Position numbers and translations under genes: made by a program. A stretch of 64,000 nt of DNA, taken from the NCBI GenBank assembly GCA_029265355.1, contig JAJUJL010000010.1, positions 1 through 64,000 of the forward strand, given 5' to 3'. The stretch comes from Chloroflexota bacterium. GTDB taxonomy: Bacteria; Chloroflexota; Anaerolineae; Anaerolineales; UBA4823. The notes below the pieces were generated by a model, which ran no database searches, had not been told where the DNA came from, and saw nothing but the letters and a program-made list of their open reading frames with translations. Positions within the stretch are counted from its first letter, which is position 1. Each line of letters begins with the position of its first letter. Positions 38,403 to 45,083 of this stretch are shown here, piece after piece.

Positions 38403-40082
38403 TCAGGCGTGCGGGGTTTGTTCCGACAGGTATTTGTCCCGGTTGGCGCGACGAGCGACCTTGCCGCTGCTGGTCTTCAGCAACCAACCGTAAGGGACAA
38501 TGTGCACGCGCCGCAAGGCGATGTCTGAGCTGCGCGTGATCACGCTGCGCAACTCGTCTGCCAGCGTGGGCCAGGATTGTGGATCGGGCAGGTCGGTTTC
38601 CGCGACCAGCACAACTTCTTCCGTGCCGGTGGTCTCGTTGGGCAATCCGAAGACCGCCACTCTCCCCGGATGCACCCCGGGCACCTCACCGGCCAGGTAT
38701 TCCAGGTCCTGTGGGTAAATGTTTTTGCCACCCACAATGATCAGGTCTTTCTTGCGACCGGTAATGAAAACCTCGCCATCCGCCAGGTAACCCAGGTCGC
38801 CCGTCAGGTACCAGCCATCTCGAAAGGATTGCGAGGTCAGCTCCGGGCGATTGTAATAACTGCTCAGCAGGCAGTTGCTCTGCAGGGCAATCTCTCCCAC
38901 GCGCCGTTCAGGCAGCGGCGCACCATGATCATCGAGGATGCGCACCGAGGTATTGTGGATCGGCCTGCCGGCGGAGAGCATCTTGATCGCCCCATTGCCC
39001 TGCGCGGGGGTGGCCCGACGCTGTTCTTGCAGCGCGCGGCGGTCGATTTCATCCACGCGCACCGGCTGGTCGATGCCGCCCTGGGTGACGGCGAAGACGT
39101 TTTCTGCCATAGCGTAGCAGGTGGCCAGGGCTTGCGGACGTAGCCCGTATGGCTGGAAGCGCTGCAGGAACTGAGCATGGCTCGACCAGTACATCGGTTC
39201 CGAGCAGTTGATCACCGCCCGCCAGGAGCTTAAGTCAACATTTTCCAGGTCGCGAGGGCGGATCTTCTGAGCGCAGAAATTGTAAGCGAAGTTGGGCAGC
39301 CAGCTCAACGTGCCTTTGTAACGAGAGACCGCCTGCAGTAATCGGTATGGCGCTCGCACCCAGTCGAAGGGCGACATCAGCACCAGGTGCGTGCCAGTCA
39401 GCAGCGGCATGAGAAAGCCGGCGATCAGCCCCATGTCGTGGTAGAGCGGCAGCCAGCTCACCACCACATCCTGCGGGCTGAGCTGTATGGCTGGGGCGTA
39501 CGCCTCGACCTGGTTGAACACCGCCCGGTTGGAAAGCGCCACGCCCTTCTGCAGGCCAGTGGTTCCGGAGGAATGTTGCAGTAAAACCAGGTCGCTGGGC
39601 TGGCGCTGCAGCCCGGGCAGCGGCGCGCCATCTGCGACTGCCTGGTAGGCGATTTGGCCTGCGTCCAGCACCAGACGCACGCTCGAGTCCGTTCCCATTG
39701 CCCGCTGCACTTCGGACAGGAAATCGCTGGAGGTGATCACGGCTGCCGGGCGGGTGACGGCAAACAGGGCTTTCAGCGAGCGGTGATATTGCTCGGGGGA
39801 GAGCTTCTCGGTGAGAAATGGCATGATGGCTGGCACAGCGCCCGCAAGCACAGCGCCAAAGAAGGCGTACACCAGCGCTTCACCGTGCGGCAGGATCAGG
39901 ATGATCACCTCGCCCGGCTGAACCCGCTGCTCAACCAAAGCCCTGGTATAGCTCAAGGATGCACGGAAGAGCAGGTCATAGGTGATCGGCTTGTCTGGCT
40001 GGCGTGTTTCCAGCAGCGTCAGGCAAACCTTGCCGGGTGTGTCCTGGTAATGGCGGAAGATCGTCTGAGCGACAGTGAGCAT
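38403..40082 (-). CDS. Fatty acyl-AMP ligase (FAAL-like) of a Dlt-like acylation cluster
   Basis: The 559-residue enzyme belongs to the ANL family. QHSSGTTGLQKGV is the P-loop (A3), YHDMGLIAG is typical of FAALs, and SWLPNFAYNFC matches the FAAL segment rather than acyl-CoA ligases. The hinge GRKKDLIIVGGKNIYPQDLE and the catalytic lysine in KTSSGKVARR are intact. FAALs make acyl-adenylates and pass the acyl group to a carrier protein, not to CoA. The start is ATG 40082; TTG 40088 is possible. The ACP gene ends 27 bases upstream. This enzyme would play the part of DltA, with a fatty or other carboxylic acid (inference). Confidence 0.82.
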   Translation of the reverse strand: MLTVAQTIFRHYQDTPGKVCLTLLETRQPDKPITYDLLFRASLSYTRALVEQRVQPGEVIILILPHGEALVYAFFGAVLAGAVPAIMPFLTEKLSPEQYHRSLKALFAVTRPAAVITSSDFLSEVQRAMGTDSSVRLVLDAGQIAYQAVADGAPLPGLQRQPSDLVLLQHSSGTTGLQKGVALSNRAVFNQVEAYAPAIQLSPQDVVVSWLPLYHDMGLIAGFLMPLLTGTHLVLMSPFDWVRAPYRLLQAVSRYKGTLSWLPNFAYNFCAQKIRPRDLENVDLSSWRAVINCSEPMYWSSHAQFLQRFQPYGLRPQALATCYAMAENVFAVTQGGIDQPVRVDEIDRRALQEQRRATPAQGNGAIKMLSAGRPIHNTSVRILDDHGAPLPERRVGEIALQSNCLLSSYYNRPELTSQSFRDGWYLTGDLGYLADGEVFITGRKKDLIIVGGKNIYPQDLEYLAGEVPGVHPGRVAVFGLPNETTGTEEVVLVAETDLPDPQSWPTLADELRSVITRSSDIALRRVHIVPYGWLLKTSSGKVARRANRDKYLSEQTPHA

Positions 40083-40109
40083 AAGCAATGCGTTTTGCCA
40101 ACCTGGGGG

Positions 40110-40352
40110 CTAGCGCCGGTCAGCGATGAGCGTCGCCAGGCTGCGCAGCGAGTCGAACGTGTCAGCGGTCAGCTCGGTGTCGTCGATGCGCACGCCGAAC
40201 TGCTCTTCGACAAAGACGGCCAGGTCCACCAGGTGAAAGGAGTCCACCAGCCCGGAGGAGATCAGGGCTTCATCGGGGTCGATGCGCCGGGTGGGCTGTT
40301 TGAGTATTTCACGGGCGATGTAGTCGGAAAGGGGTGAGATGATTTCTTCCAT
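40110..40352 (-). CDS. Acyl carrier protein of the Dlt-like cluster
   Basis: This 80-residue protein is a typical acidic carrier protein with four helices. Phosphopantetheine would attach to Ser38 in GLVDSFHLVDL, where DSF replaces the common DSL. The start at 40352 gives a normal-length ACP. An alternative ATG at 40382 overlaps the upstream SGNH gene by four bases (ATGA) and would add ten basic/hydrophobic residues. It lies between an SGNH lipoprotein and the FAAL, so it should accept the FAAL product and present it to the MBOAT protein, as DltC does. Confidence 0.88.
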   Translation of the reverse strand: MEEIISPLSDYIAREILKQPTRRIDPDEALISSGLVDSFHLVDLAVFVEEQFGVRIDDTELTADTFDSLRSLATLIADRR

Positions 40353-40378: not shown

Positions 40379-41401
40379 TCATGGCGCGGCCTGGATGGCG
40401 CTCCAAATGGCATCCAACATCTGCAGGGTGGTCAGGTTGCGCCAGGGCCAGGCTTTCTGCATCGCCTGGGGGTCGTCGAAGCGGTTGCCGGCCCAGGTCA
40501 GGTGCACACCGTCCTCTTGTAAGCCCCGTCCGGGCAATGGCTGGACGACCGCCCAATAATTGATCAGCGGAATCTCGTATGCTTGCGCCAGGCGCGCGAT
40601 GGCAGCGTTGATGCTGCCGTCGCCTTCCAGGTCATCGGCTTTGGTGGAAAGCACCGGCAGCACGCCATTCTCGATGGAGTATTCGATGGCGCGGCGCATC
40701 TGGCTCTCGAAAGAGTCCTGGTGCCAGACGTCATTGGAGCCGATCAAGATAAAGGCGATCGAAGGCCGGTTCAGGCGATACTCGCACGCCAGCGGACCTT
40801 CATCTGGCTGGCAGAGCTGGCGGTTGGCCCACAGCGGGGAGAAAAGCGAGGCGGCGTTGAAGCCGGCCTTGGCTGCCAGGCTGGCGCGGGCGTACGATCC
40901 CTGGAAAGCCTCGATGACTGGCTGCAACTCGTCGTATTCTCCCAGGCGATAGAAATTTGGGCCGCGGTCGAAGTCCGTGAGAAACCAGGCGGTAGTGCCG
41001 CCGCAATCGCCCACTTTCGAGAAGCCGGTGGGGTTATTCCCCATGGCCACGCCCTGGCGGTAGATCTCCACGGCGCGCGCCGAGATCGGCGAGATGATCG
41101 GCAAGGTTTTCCAGTCGTCCGGACCCAGGGTAAGGGCGGGCGGGGGTTGGGTGGCACCAGTTTGGGTCTGGGTGAGGGTGGGCGGTTGCCCCGTTGGCGG
41201 CGTCGGGGCGACGGGTGCGGTCGAGGCGCTGGTCGAGCTGGTTTGGGCTACCGCTGGCGTGGGCGGCAAAACTGCATCTTCCAGCATGGCAGCGGTGGTT
41301 CCCACGGCTGGCTGTGCAACCGGAGCAGATGTCGGGTATGTGCAGCCTGCCAACGCCAGGCAGGCGAGAAGGGTCAGAAATAACAGGTTATGGCGCTTCA
41401 T
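40379..41401 (-). CDS. SGNH/GDSL-hydrolase-like lipoprotein with Cys in place of the nucleophile Ser
   Basis: The 340-residue lipoprotein has a lipobox LALAGC (Cys20) and a long Pro/Thr/Gln linker (about 25-95). An SGNH fold follows. The block I position reads KVGDCGGTT, so the nucleophile is Cys133 instead of Ser. Block III is IGSND (N223) and the DxxH is DGVH (D297, H300). It is anchored outside the cell. A TATAAT nine bases before the ATG suggests a leaderless mRNA. The gene couples to the ACP, so a role in the extracytoplasmic acyl transfer is likely. The Cys could alter its chemistry or leave a binding role. Confidence 0.75.
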   Translation of the reverse strand: MKRHNLLFLTLLACLALAGCTYPTSAPVAQPAVGTTAAMLEDAVLPPTPAVAQTSSTSASTAPVAPTPPTGQPPTLTQTQTGATQPPPALTLGPDDWKTLPIISPISARAVEIYRQGVAMGNNPTGFSKVGDCGGTTAWFLTDFDRGPNFYRLGEYDELQPVIEAFQGSYARASLAAKAGFNAASLFSPLWANRQLCQPDEGPLACEYRLNRPSIAFILIGSNDVWHQDSFESQMRRAIEYSIENGVLPVLSTKADDLEGDGSINAAIARLAQAYEIPLINYWAVVQPLPGRGLQEDGVHLTWAGNRFDDPQAMQKAWPWRNLTTLQMLDAIWSAIQAAP

Positions 41402-41623: not shown

Positions 41624-42781
41624 TCATTTCCCCTGCTCCGCGATTTCGATAATCTCCGGCGCCAGGCGCTCAGCCAGACGGCGCGAGCCTGTTGGATTCA
41701 GGTGCACCGCCGAATTGGTGAATTCCTGCGGCGGCGCCAGGTCCCACAAATCCAGGTAACGCCAGCCGTTCTGCTGGCTGGCGGATCGCATCAGGCTGCG
41801 GTAATCATCGTACGCCCAGCGGGGATAGTAAAAGTTGTACCGTATCTGGCTGTTTTTTCCCTGGCTGATGAACATCGGCTCGTTCACCAGCAGCACGGGA
41901 ACACCCTGAGCCATCTGCACGCCAGCGGCGATCACCTCGATGGCCAGGTCGGAGGGCTGCAGATGGGGCGGCTGCAGGCCGTGGAAGGAATCGTCAGCCT
42001 CCAGGTCGGACATCACCGGCGTGTAACTGGCGGGAATGTCCTGGTCAATGCCGGTGGCGCTCCACAGCACACCGTAGGCCTGCAGGCGGAATAGATCGGC
42101 CAGGTTGCGCCGGTCGCCGATCAGCGTGCGCTGCCAGAAGGTGGGCTTAGCGAGCGCGCCGGCTTCGGCCTCCAGCGGCAGGTTGTAGCGTTGGATCAGC
42201 TCGCGCACCGGCTGCGGGTTTTGCTGCAAGAGCGGCGGGAAGAGCTGCTTATCTCTGGGCAATGACTCCAGCGTGTGCAGCCAGACCACCAGATCTGGAT
42301 CGTAGTGCATGCCGTAAGAGAGGAGCAGCAGGTCTTTGGTCAGCGACATGACCGGGTAGCCGAGGTTGTAGGCGCGCACCCGGCGACCATCCGGCAGTGA
42401 CAAACCCAGGCGGTTGATCTGCGCTGAGAGGGTTTCTTCCGGCGGCAGCAGAAAGCCCCAGGTGGAGGAATCGCCAATCAGCAGCACGCGGTATTCAGCC
42501 GGGGATTTTGGGGCAGCGGAGATCTCGTGCGAGGCCAGCATGGCTTCCAGGTTGAACAGGCTCAGGTTGTAAGCGCGCTCGGGCACGTCGCCGTAGGGCA
42601 GGCGCACCCTGCCGGGGAACAGGCGGTTGTAGAGCGAGATGCGCCCCAGCGCCGGCTGGGGCTGGAGCAGCGCATACAGCAGGTTGAGCAGGAAGAACAG
42701 GAGCAGCGCTTTCGCCAGCACCCGGGCGAACGAGACCTGCCCATCCTGGGTTTCGGGATGTGGATTGCGTATAGCAGTCAT
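41624..42781 (-). CDS. Membrane-anchored SGNH-like protein, DltD/AlgJ-type partner of MBOAT
   Basis: The 385-residue protein has one N-terminal membrane helix (about 18-40) and an extracytoplasmic SGNH domain. Block I is LIGDSSTWG, with nucleophile Ser105. The C-terminal histidine is in SAVHLNPTG, but the Asp three residues before it is Ser. Membrane-anchored SGNH proteins encoded next to an MBOAT acyltransferase (DltD, AlgJ/AlgX, PatB types) finish acyl transfer to a surface polymer. The start overlaps the MBOAT stop by four bases, so they are made together. Downstream is a palindrome at 41529. Confidence 0.82.
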   Translation of the reverse strand: MTAIRNPHPETQDGQVSFARVLAKALLLFFLLNLLYALLQPQPALGRISLYNRLFPGRVRLPYGDVPERAYNLSLFNLEAMLASHEISAAPKSPAEYRVLLIGDSSTWGFLLPPEETLSAQINRLGLSLPDGRRVRAYNLGYPVMSLTKDLLLLSYGMHYDPDLVVWLHTLESLPRDKQLFPPLLQQNPQPVRELIQRYNLPLEAEAGALAKPTFWQRTLIGDRRNLADLFRLQAYGVLWSATGIDQDIPASYTPVMSDLEADDSFHGLQPPHLQPSDLAIEVIAAGVQMAQGVPVLLVNEPMFISQGKNSQIRYNFYYPRWAYDDYRSLMRSASQQNGWRYLDLWDLAPPQEFTNSAVHLNPTGSRRLAERLAPEIIEIAEQGK

Positions 42782-44205
42782 GGCTTCATCCCCAGCAGCG
42801 CCTGGAGAACGTGCAGCGAGCTCTGCAGGTCGGGCAGCGCGAACCAGACCCAGCCCAGGCTGACGAAGTTGAAGGTCAGCAGCCAGCCGCCGGCGGCGAG
42901 CACCCGCTGCTGCCAGGGCCTGGCCGGCGCAGTCCAGCCGCGGGCGCGCTGCCATTCGCTCCAGCGGTTGTGGACGAAAAGCCCGGCGGCGTGCCATAGC
43001 CCCCATAAAGCAAAATTCCAGGTGAGCCCGTGCCACAGCCCGATCAAGAGCATCACACCCGTTTGCCCCACCAGGATGATCGCCCAGATGGGCGGCTTTG
43101 CCGGGTGGGTGCGCAGCCAGCGGGTGAGCGGGTTGAAAAAATACGCCCGGAACCACTGCGCCAGCGTGATGTGCCAGGCGTTCCAGAAGCCGGTCAGGTT
43201 GGTTTTCAGGTAGGGAGCGTTGAAGTTTTCCGGCAGGCGGATGCCCAGCAAGCGTCCCAGTCCGATGGCGATGTCGGTGTAGCCGGAGAAATCCAGATAC
43301 AGGCGCAGGGCGTAGGCGTAGAGCAGCAACCACATCCACATCGGGCTATTCACCTGCAAGGCATTGGCGGGGTCCAGGGAAAAGATCGCCAGCGTGTCGG
43401 CGAGCACGTATTTTTTGAGCGCGCCTTGCAGCAGGCGCAGTCCCCCAGCCCGCACATCCTGGCGGCGGTCGCGCTGCTCCTGGCGCAGGTCTGTTAGGAA
43501 GCGCGGCAGGCGGTCGATGGGGCCGGAGGTGTACGCCGGGAAGAAGAGGGCATAGGCTAAAAATTCGGGCAGGCTGGCGGGGTAATGCTTCTTCTCCTGG
43601 GCGTCGCGCAGCACGTGCAGCAGGCGGAAGGCCAGGTAGGAATAGCCCAGCCAGCGCAGGTCGAGCGCAGATGCCAGCGAGGCGTCTTGCCCGCTCGCTG
43701 AGCGCAGGGCGGCGCTGGCCAGGCGGGCCAATGGCTCGCTCTTGAGGACGAGAAAGGCGCTCACCAGCAGCAGGATAGCCAGCAGGGGCGTGAGCGGGCG
43801 AGCGCGCAGCCGCCAGCCGACCAGCGCCAGCGCTGAAATGAGGGCCAATCCGGTGATCACCGCAGTCGCCTGGGGAGGGCGTCCAGGCGTCAGGCAGCAG
43901 AGCGCCGGCAGGTAGCGATTGAGCGCCACCAGCAGCACCAGCAGCAGCACGACGGACAGGGCAATGCCGTCCGAGCGGGTGAGTGTTTGTGGCGAAGGCC
44001 GGCTTACCGCCCAGGTGAGCAGCGCCAAGCCCAGGGCGGCGGTCGGCAGCCAGAAATCCAGCCCGCGCACCGCAATCGCCGGCTGCAGCCAGAAGATCGC
44101 CAGCAGGCTGAGCAGCGCCAGCGCCCAGGCGCGCCGGTTTGGCGGCAGCAGCCAGCCGCCTGCCAGCGCGATCGCGATGAGCACCGCAAGTTGGGTGAGG
44201 GTCAT
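42778..44205 (-). CDS. MBOAT-family O-acyltransferase, DltB-like
   Basis: This 475-residue integral membrane protein has about eleven helices and the MBOAT signature. The catalytic His lies in IGLWHGLTWN, with a second in GLWHAAG. KYVLADTL, YLDFSGYTDIAIG and LPENFNAPY are characteristic of DltB/AlgI/PatA relatives. It should move an acyl group across the membrane from the ACP to an external acceptor. The start is ATG 44205; a frame open to 44289 runs into a palindrome and is discarded. The SGNH gene is coupled by a four-base overlap. Confidence 0.9.
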   Translation of the reverse strand: MTLTQLAVLIAIALAGGWLLPPNRRAWALALLSLLAIFWLQPAIAVRGLDFWLPTAALGLALLTWAVSRPSPQTLTRSDGIALSVVLLLVLLVALNRYLPALCCLTPGRPPQATAVITGLALISALALVGWRLRARPLTPLLAILLLVSAFLVLKSEPLARLASAALRSASGQDASLASALDLRWLGYSYLAFRLLHVLRDAQEKKHYPASLPEFLAYALFFPAYTSGPIDRLPRFLTDLRQEQRDRRQDVRAGGLRLLQGALKKYVLADTLAIFSLDPANALQVNSPMWMWLLLYAYALRLYLDFSGYTDIAIGLGRLLGIRLPENFNAPYLKTNLTGFWNAWHITLAQWFRAYFFNPLTRWLRTHPAKPPIWAIILVGQTGVMLLIGLWHGLTWNFALWGLWHAAGLFVHNRWSEWQRARGWTAPARPWQQRVLAAGGWLLTFNFVSLGWVWFALPDLQSSLHVLQALLGMKP

Positions 44206-44211
44206 GCGAGC

Positions 44212-44277
44212 AACCCCCTCCCAGCCTCCCCCATTTTGCGCAGCAAAATGGGGGAGGTGCCGGTGGCGGAGGGGGTT
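44212..44277. repeat. Nested palindrome upstream of the MBOAT gene
   Basis: A perfect 14-base inverted repeat (CCTCCCCCATTTTG, 44225-44238 with 44244-44257) with a 5-base loop lies inside an outer 10-base pair of arms (44212-44221 with 44268-44277). It may form a cruciform or an mRNA structure in the MBOAT leader. Confidence 0.65.
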
Positions 44278-44506
44278 TTCCTCCCGCATAAGCTACAGTG
44301 GTGTTTGCCTGGGGCACGACACGGATTTTGACACGGATACACGGATTGGATGCGGGTAGGGGCGACCCACGCGAGTGGACAGGCGCGCAGGCGGGCGCGG
44401 TGTGTTGGTAGTGATGGATGCAAGGTGGGGGAGAACGGGTCGCCCGTAGCGGCAGGCGTCCGACTCGGATATACGGAAGACAGGCATTCCCTCGCCGAGA
44501 GGTATT

Positions 44507-44545
44507 CCCTCCCCCAAAATCCAAAGACGGGATTTTGGGGGAGGG
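44507..44545. repeat. Palindrome downstream of the DltX-like gene
   Basis: A perfect 16-base stem (CCCTCCCCCAAAATCC, 44507-44522 with 44530-44545) and a 7-base loop lie 22 bases past the stop of the 39-residue gene. It is related in sequence to the palindrome at 44225-44257. It could attenuate or process the transcript. Confidence 0.65.
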
Positions 44546-44566
44546 CAGGGAGGGGGTCGGCGCGCC

Positions 44567-44686
44567 TCAAAACCCCTGGTAGATCCACTGCGGAGCATCT
44601 CCGGCGGTGAAGATCAGCAGCGCGACCAGCGCCAGGCACAGCAAAACAGCGTATAAATTTTCTCGGGTCAGGATGCGGCGCAGCAT
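44567..44686 (-). CDS. DltX-like single-TM micropeptide (39 residues)
   Basis: This small ORF (ATG 44686, TGA 44569-44567) encodes 39 residues: MLRRILTREN, then a hydrophobic helix from about L11 to F26, then a polar turn and the C-terminus APQWIYQGF. DltX of Gram-positive dlt operons is a similar small single-TM protein that ends in an aromatic-I-Y-x-x-F motif (FIYNEF-like); its Tyr is reported as the acyl carrier in D-alanine export. The aromatic-Ile-Tyr-x-x-Phe ending matches. It lies eight bases after the lipoprotein gene and 361 bases upstream of the MBOAT gene on the same strand. Its ribosome site is weak (GGTAG). The call rests on size, topology, ending and neighbours. Confidence 0.72.
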   Translation of the reverse strand: MLRRILTRENLYAVLLCLALVALLIFTAGDAPQWIYQGF

Positions 44687-44693
44687 GCAGAAT

Positions 44694-45083
44694 CTACCGG
44701 TAGCCGCACATCAGCCAGTCGCCGCCCTGCTGCACCACCTGGTAGGTGCGCTCGGCGAGGTCGAGCTCCAGCACTTCGTTGCCGTAATTGGCGACGATCT
44801 TTCCGGTGCAGGATACCAGCGTGGTCTCGCCATCCGCGCCGCTTTCCTGGCAGGAGGCCTCTTCCAGGGTGACGGTGACCGCGGCGAAGGACTCCAGCTC
44901 GAGCTGGGCGGCGGCCTCCCAATCCGGGCAGGAGAGCGCCGCCAGGCGGGCGCCGTCGCGGTCGACCAGCGCCTGAAGGTAGGAGAGCACCGCGCCGGTG
45001 GGGCTATTTTGCGCGCCGTTGCTGCAGGCGGCGGTGAGGATCAGCATCGATATCAACAAACAACGATAGAACCAGGTTCGCAT
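44694..45083 (-). CDS. Small secreted lipoprotein, NTF2-like fold possible
   Basis: This 129-residue product has a lipoprotein signal (LILTAAC, Cys20), leaving about 109 residues on the outer face. SPTGAVLSYLQALVDRDGARLAALSC is a helical N-part; the remainder is beta-rich with EVLELDLAERTYQVVQQGGDWLMCGYR. Three further cysteines (about 52, 78 and 91) and one near the end could pair. GGAGA precedes the ATG. The 39-residue peptide follows eight bases later, so it belongs to the same unit. No family assigned. Confidence 0.6.
   Translation of the reverse strand: MRTWFYRCLLISMLILTAACSNGAQNSPTGAVLSYLQALVDRDGARLAALSCPDWEAAAQLELESFAAVTVTLEEASCQESGADGETTLVSCTGKIVANYGNEVLELDLAERTYQVVQQGGDWLMCGYR

Follow-up and report, generated by a model that had tools for sequence, protein, structure and literature searches.

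A 39-residue membrane microprotein, here called X, is very probably a DltX-type acyl-shuttle microprotein of an envelope-acylation pathway in the class Anaerolineae. The observations that carry this reading are the reality of the gene, selection on its C-terminal motif, a partner MBOAT without such a motif, obligate co-occurrence of the two, their linkage, and the model folds of the MBOAT and SGNH proteins. The window, which is the whole 64,000-nucleotide stretch of Chloroflexota DNA that was analyzed, contains a cassette of seven genes. All lie on the minus strand in the order lipoprotein, X, MBOAT, SGNH1, SGNH2, acyl carrier protein (ACP), and fatty-acyl-AMP-ligase-type enzyme (FAAL), an arrangement that many relatives repeat. 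The features are as follows.

44694 to 45083, minus strand: small lipoprotein of 129 residues with an LTAAC lipobox and a weak DUF4440-like match, upstream of X and often adjoining it in relatives.
44567 to 44686, minus strand: X, a predicted single-pass membrane microprotein with the putative C-terminal acyl-shuttle motif WIYQGF (from the ORF list, class-wide conservation, alignment, and pN/pS).
44570 to 44587, minus strand: WIYQGF codons of X, with the codon of the presumed acyl-accepting Tyr36 at 44579-44581.
44206 to 44566, no strand: X-MBOAT spacer of 361 nt with dispersed hairpin repeats; the gap is short in most relatives.
42778 to 44205, minus strand: DltB-like MBOAT of 475 residues (PF03062) with an invariant His392 (GLWHG) and no C-terminal shuttle motif.
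41624 to 42781, minus strand: SGNH1, candidate membrane-anchored SGNH acyltransferase (DltD analogue), in which the Ser of GDSSxWG and the His of SAxHLxP are invariant.
40379 to 41401, minus strand: SGNH2, a second SGNH protein and a lipoprotein (LAGC), whose nucleophile position reads GDC, not GDS, in 47 of 57.
40110 to 40352, minus strand: acyl carrier protein (PF00550) with an invariant DSF phosphopantetheine site (Ser in 51 of 51).
38403 to 40088, minus strand: adenylating enzyme of the FAAL type; closest solved structures 3pbk and 3kxw.

The ORF of X consists of 39 codons with an ATG start and a TGA stop, and its translation is MLRRILTRENLYAVLLCLALVALLIFTAGDAPQWIYQGF. A preliminary description had placed a peptide with a start and a natural stop here, just downstream of a lipoprotein gene and without naming a strand; the peptide is borne out on the minus strand, and its start lies 7 nt past the lipoprotein gene's stop. 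The hydrophobic helix claimed for it is found at residues 11-29, the sole hydrophobic stretch (mean Kyte-Doolittle 2.6). Three K/R residues lie N-terminal of the helix and none after it, so that hydropathy and charge distribution, the only basis used, predict an N-in/C-out protein with the topology of DltX, a single helix with the motif outside the cytoplasm. The weak ribosome site noted earlier proves usual for the family, whose members are 36-44 residues long and have a simple SD match upstream in 36 of 153 cases. Among the 1142 stop-to-stop frames of at least 30 residues in the window, X alone ends in [FW]xYxxF. The label "unannotated" does not apply everywhere: in Leptolinea sp. HRD-7 the product already has an entry as a hypothetical protein (BCY19582.1). 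No family was assigned when the peptide and 30 relatives were scanned against Pfam and NCBIfam, and neither the peptide nor the X profile matched any solved structure.

By its pattern of conservation, X is a true protein-coding gene. The preliminary description had tied its claim to a maintained frame and to retention of the last six residues in relatives. The frame is kept, synonymous change is free, and in 74 of 75 distinct X sequences the residues just before the stop are [WF]-x-Y-x-x-F, with the Tyr and the last Phe invariant in these 74. The endings comprise 68 WIYQGF, three FIYQGF, one each of WVYGGF, WMYQGF, and WIYQNF, and one truncated form; the first position of the DltX hexapeptide F-x-Y-x-x-F is thus mostly Trp, and Phe in three. 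This count draws on loci from profile or whole-peptide searches only, in which the motif was not required, and omits a pattern scan of GTDB genomes that demanded [AS]PxWIYQGF. Every synonymous form of the Ile, Tyr, Gln, Gly, and Phe codons of the motif is in use across X copies. Pooled pN/pS is 0.043 for the last six codons vs 0.510 for the preceding 26, of which the contrast alone is readable because synonymous sites are close to saturated. In an alignment of thirty copies, N10, A13, P32, and the entire WIYQGF are common to all.

In the same alignment, an N-terminal E-N and A and C residues in the middle of the helix are conserved, in line with helix packing, and these, together with the single-pass helix, would also suit a structural scaffold that joins the MBOAT and SGNH proteins without acylation of its Tyr. 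DltX, too, binds both its MBOAT and its SGNH partner (PMC12148441). A purely structural role is nevertheless unlikely: the strongest constraint falls on the predicted extracytoplasmic Tyr-x-x-Phe end and not on the helix, and the same motif is found fused to MBOATs that have no microprotein.

The acyl-shuttle reading of X draws further on the nature of the partner MBOAT. Its best solved relative is DltB, and it scores 211 bits against TIGR04091, below the cut-off of 375. Its structural model (pLDDT 92) superposes on DltB with Z 29.7 and rmsd 3.0 over 376 aligned residues, and on PORCN with Z about 24. None of 104 tails of window-type MBOATs carries a C-terminal motif, the lone regex match, FHYVAF, being internal and 30 residues short of the terminus. 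The MBOATs retrieved from other bacteria, DltBs excepted, nearly all end in one (FIYGGF, FLYFNF, FIYFQF); the exception, from Novosphingobium, lacks a terminal motif in a sequence that lies at the end of its record. Second MBOATs in Anaerolineae carry a motif of their own, and the DltX proteins beside DltB end in YIYNDF in Niallia and FIYNEF in Listeria. In the MBOAT tree, the fused, DltB, and Anaerolineae clans are separate; the tree is unrooted, and a sister pair is not readable from it.

In a sample of 298 genomes drawn evenly from the class, all 70 genomes with a motif-less MBOAT hold X, although these genomes are related and do not represent 70 independent events. Of the 228 genomes without an intact motif-less MBOAT, 227 have neither and one has X. 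The lone case, G082, has a fragmented MBOAT, and its X (L167, contig C633) stops inside the motif, after FIY; joint decay or assembly errors would both produce this picture. In six sampled genomes whose only MBOAT is of the other kind, each such MBOAT bears its own motif and X is absent. Despite the relatedness of the genomes, the negative controls agree with this pattern, as do five cases in which the two genes lie on different contigs. The preliminary description had named the DltX-type Tyr-x-x-Phe end as the functional part of X. This proposal is supported by analogy, through selection on the last six residues, predicted topology, and adjacency to MBOAT and SGNH genes, and is backed further by the missing motif in the partner and by near-perfect co-occurrence with motif-less MBOATs only.

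When 60 relatives were searched with the whole peptide, about half had a strong copy of X (E < 1e-9). The survey of the 298 class genomes returned 76 matches, and with five at E about 0.001-0.009 discounted, X is present in 71. All strong matches in a phylum-wide draw fall in Anaerolineae; candidates outside the class, at E about 0.005, were treated as noise. The pattern scan of GTDB species genomes confirmed 297 places. Nearly all of the best 80 of these 297 are in Chloroflexota-named genomes, mostly Anaerolineae/Anaerolineales, with a few labelled 'uncultured bacterium', and the carriers listed include an isolate, Levilinea saccharolytica. Judged from these searches, X is a gene of about 300 species of Anaerolineae (Chloroflexota) and is confined to the class as far as sampled. 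The relatives that carry it place the window's host, too, in Anaerolineae. A candidate second copy in the window's own genome, the weak match G000:C19:10733, was rejected, as it falls within a long chain-length-determinant/kinase-like protein. At another locus (L165, G310:C41:13264-14051), a second, partial X-like copy lies ∼600 nt past the first.

Of 96 X loci with sufficient flank, 90 have an MBOAT gene close by, and X directly precedes it in most loci; carrier and ligase are each found in only 25 of 45 X loci with full flanks, which counts against the acyl-shuttle reading. At six loci (L116, L119, L124, L131 (= L183), L133, and L135), X instead follows the FAAL gene with no MBOAT nearby. 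One such genome, G290 (98% complete), has a single MBOAT, which is motif-less and lies beside SGNH1 on another contig. Depending on the lineage, X is therefore linked to one or the other end of the pathway, as predicted for a shuttle between them. An apparent fusion of X to a 661-residue frame (L183/L131) was discarded as a chance open frame overlying the FAAL gene. The window's X-MBOAT spacer holds two perfect hairpins, of the CCCTCCCCCAAAATCC and CCTCCCCCATTTTGC types, and the rest of the genome contains more than 50 partial matches to them; from its sequence, the spacer is an insertion of dispersed hairpin repeats into the operon.

The MBOAT and SGNH1 genes share 4 nt (ATGA) at the MBOAT stop. 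The SGNH1 model has the SGNH fold; DltD is among its structural matches (Z 13.6, 256 residues), but many SGNH proteins match it equally well. Among relatives of SGNH2, the nucleophile position is Cys in 47 of 57 and Ser in 10, the His is mostly kept, and several copies occur in tandem in some. SGNH2 and the lipoprotein may, speculatively, act on the acceptor side.

The composition of the cassette raises the question of whether it is an ordinary Dlt pathway with D-alanine as cargo in a Chloroflexota host, with a diverged DltA as ligase. The gene set is like dltXABCD, the MBOAT is nearest DltB by sequence and fold and is, as in dlt operons, a DltB-type protein without its own motif, and the ACP gives a weak match to the DltC model (20 bits, below the 52-bit cut-off). 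The ligase, however, points elsewhere. Its best families are the fatty-acyl-AMP ligases: it scores 366 bits against PRK09192, under the curated subfamily cut-off of 600; 3pbk, 3kxw, and other FAALs rank above CoA ligases among its solved relatives; and its alignment with FAALs is near-gapless through the stretch after AENVFAV, so that the FAAL-specific insertion is present. DltA is absent from the best 60 solved relatives listed, and the DltA model finds no gene over its cut-off in the whole genome, with the cassette ligase not among the matches listed. The Pfam DltX model (PF12459) is over its cut-off in none of 38 X-family genomes, and a Pfam DltD scan of SGNH1 gave no match. A D-alanine pathway is thus very unlikely. 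By its gene content, the cassette falls outside the dlt operons, since a different ligase stands in place of the one for D-Ala; with a FAAL-type ligase and no DltA over the cut-off in the genome, the cargo is probably not D-Ala but a fatty or other hydrophobic acid, the fatty acid being suggested by the enzyme family only. The ligase is found in 64 of 71 X genomes vs 6 of 227 others, in favor of the acyl-shuttle reading of X; its absence, at the threshold used, from seven X genomes counts against it.

That the ORF is a chance frame or a regulatory leader making no protein, as its shortness and lack of a good ribosome site might suggest, has a negligible probability, because frame and sequence are kept class-wide with synonymous variation, a codon pattern that refutes it.

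For X as an acyl shuttle, the middle steps borrow their chemistry from work on DltX and PatA, for which the shuttle mechanism is established; whether it belongs to DltX or to a fused MBOAT, a C-terminal F-x-Y-x-x-F accepts the acyl group on its Tyr (PMC12148441). By this analogy, the FAAL would activate a carboxylic acid and load it on the ACP in the cytoplasm. The DltB-like MBOAT would then transfer the acyl group across the membrane to Tyr36 of X, with WIYQGF outside, and X would pass it to the active-site Ser of SGNH1, which would esterify an acceptor on the cell surface (envelope). The acyl-Tyr chemistry, the formation of a complex, and the order of transfer are what we infer from these precedents. 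The broader proposal, a class-wide Anaerolineae pathway of FAAL, carrier, DltB-like MBOAT, and separate-microprotein Tyr that serves fatty-acyl-type surface lipidation or acylation outside D-alanylation, stands at about even chances.

A 2025 paper describes non-Dlt MBOAT-SGNH pathways as having neither a DltX-like microprotein nor a carrier (PMC12148441); contrary to that statement, the present cassette holds both. Carrier genes also adjoin fused-motif MBOATs (FIYGGF, FVYQGF) at a Metabacillus plasmid locus (L188, 1760-6088), where an AMP-ligase gene lies beside them too, and at two Anaerolineae loci (L204, L206), and carrier use may be wider than stated (PMC12148441). In the literature reachable here, a separate acyl-shuttle microprotein is described for D-alanylation only. 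Searches for papers that link Anaerolineae or Chloroflexi to MBOAT, DltB, or DltX gave no relevant result, though an earlier mention for Chloroflexota may exist. The split between MBOAT and microprotein would accordingly be a broader solution, probably with different cargo. A family absent from Pfam and NCBIfam gains a proposed role by analogy, and a predicted surface acylation in Anaerolineae becomes testable.

Among known systems, the DltX of Bacillota dlt operons (PF12459) is the closest in design. Like X, it is a single-pass, N-in/C-out protein with a C-terminal [F/Y/W]-x-Y-x-x-F, and its partners are likewise a motif-less DltB-type MBOAT, an SGNH protein, and a carrier protein. In contrast with DltX, X has no profile similarity outside the motif: one of 30 members matches PF12459, at E 0.14, and hhalign of the family with two DltX proteins gives a probability of 1.2, with no homology beyond the motif. 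X is also distinct in its length of 36-44 residues, its usual motif WIYQGF, a gene placed before that of the MBOAT and not before dltA, a FAAL-type ligase, and its Anaerolineae hosts. X is best described as a DltX analogue, or a very distant homologue working like DltX, and by profile is no member of the DltX family.

The PatA/AlgI-type MBOATs share with the X system an extracytoplasmic acyl-shuttle motif and an SGNH partner, but their motif is carried by additional helices at the C-terminus of the MBOAT, and their donor is acyl-CoA (PMC12148441). The X system encodes the motif in a gene of its own and includes a carrier and a ligase. The ligase aligns over its full length with the solved FAALs (3pbk, 3kxw) and is encoded beside the carrier, as in FAAL and ACP modules. 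Known FAAL modules feed polyketide, peptide, or mycolate synthesis; unlike these, the module of the cassette is linked to an MBOAT-SGNH transfer system.
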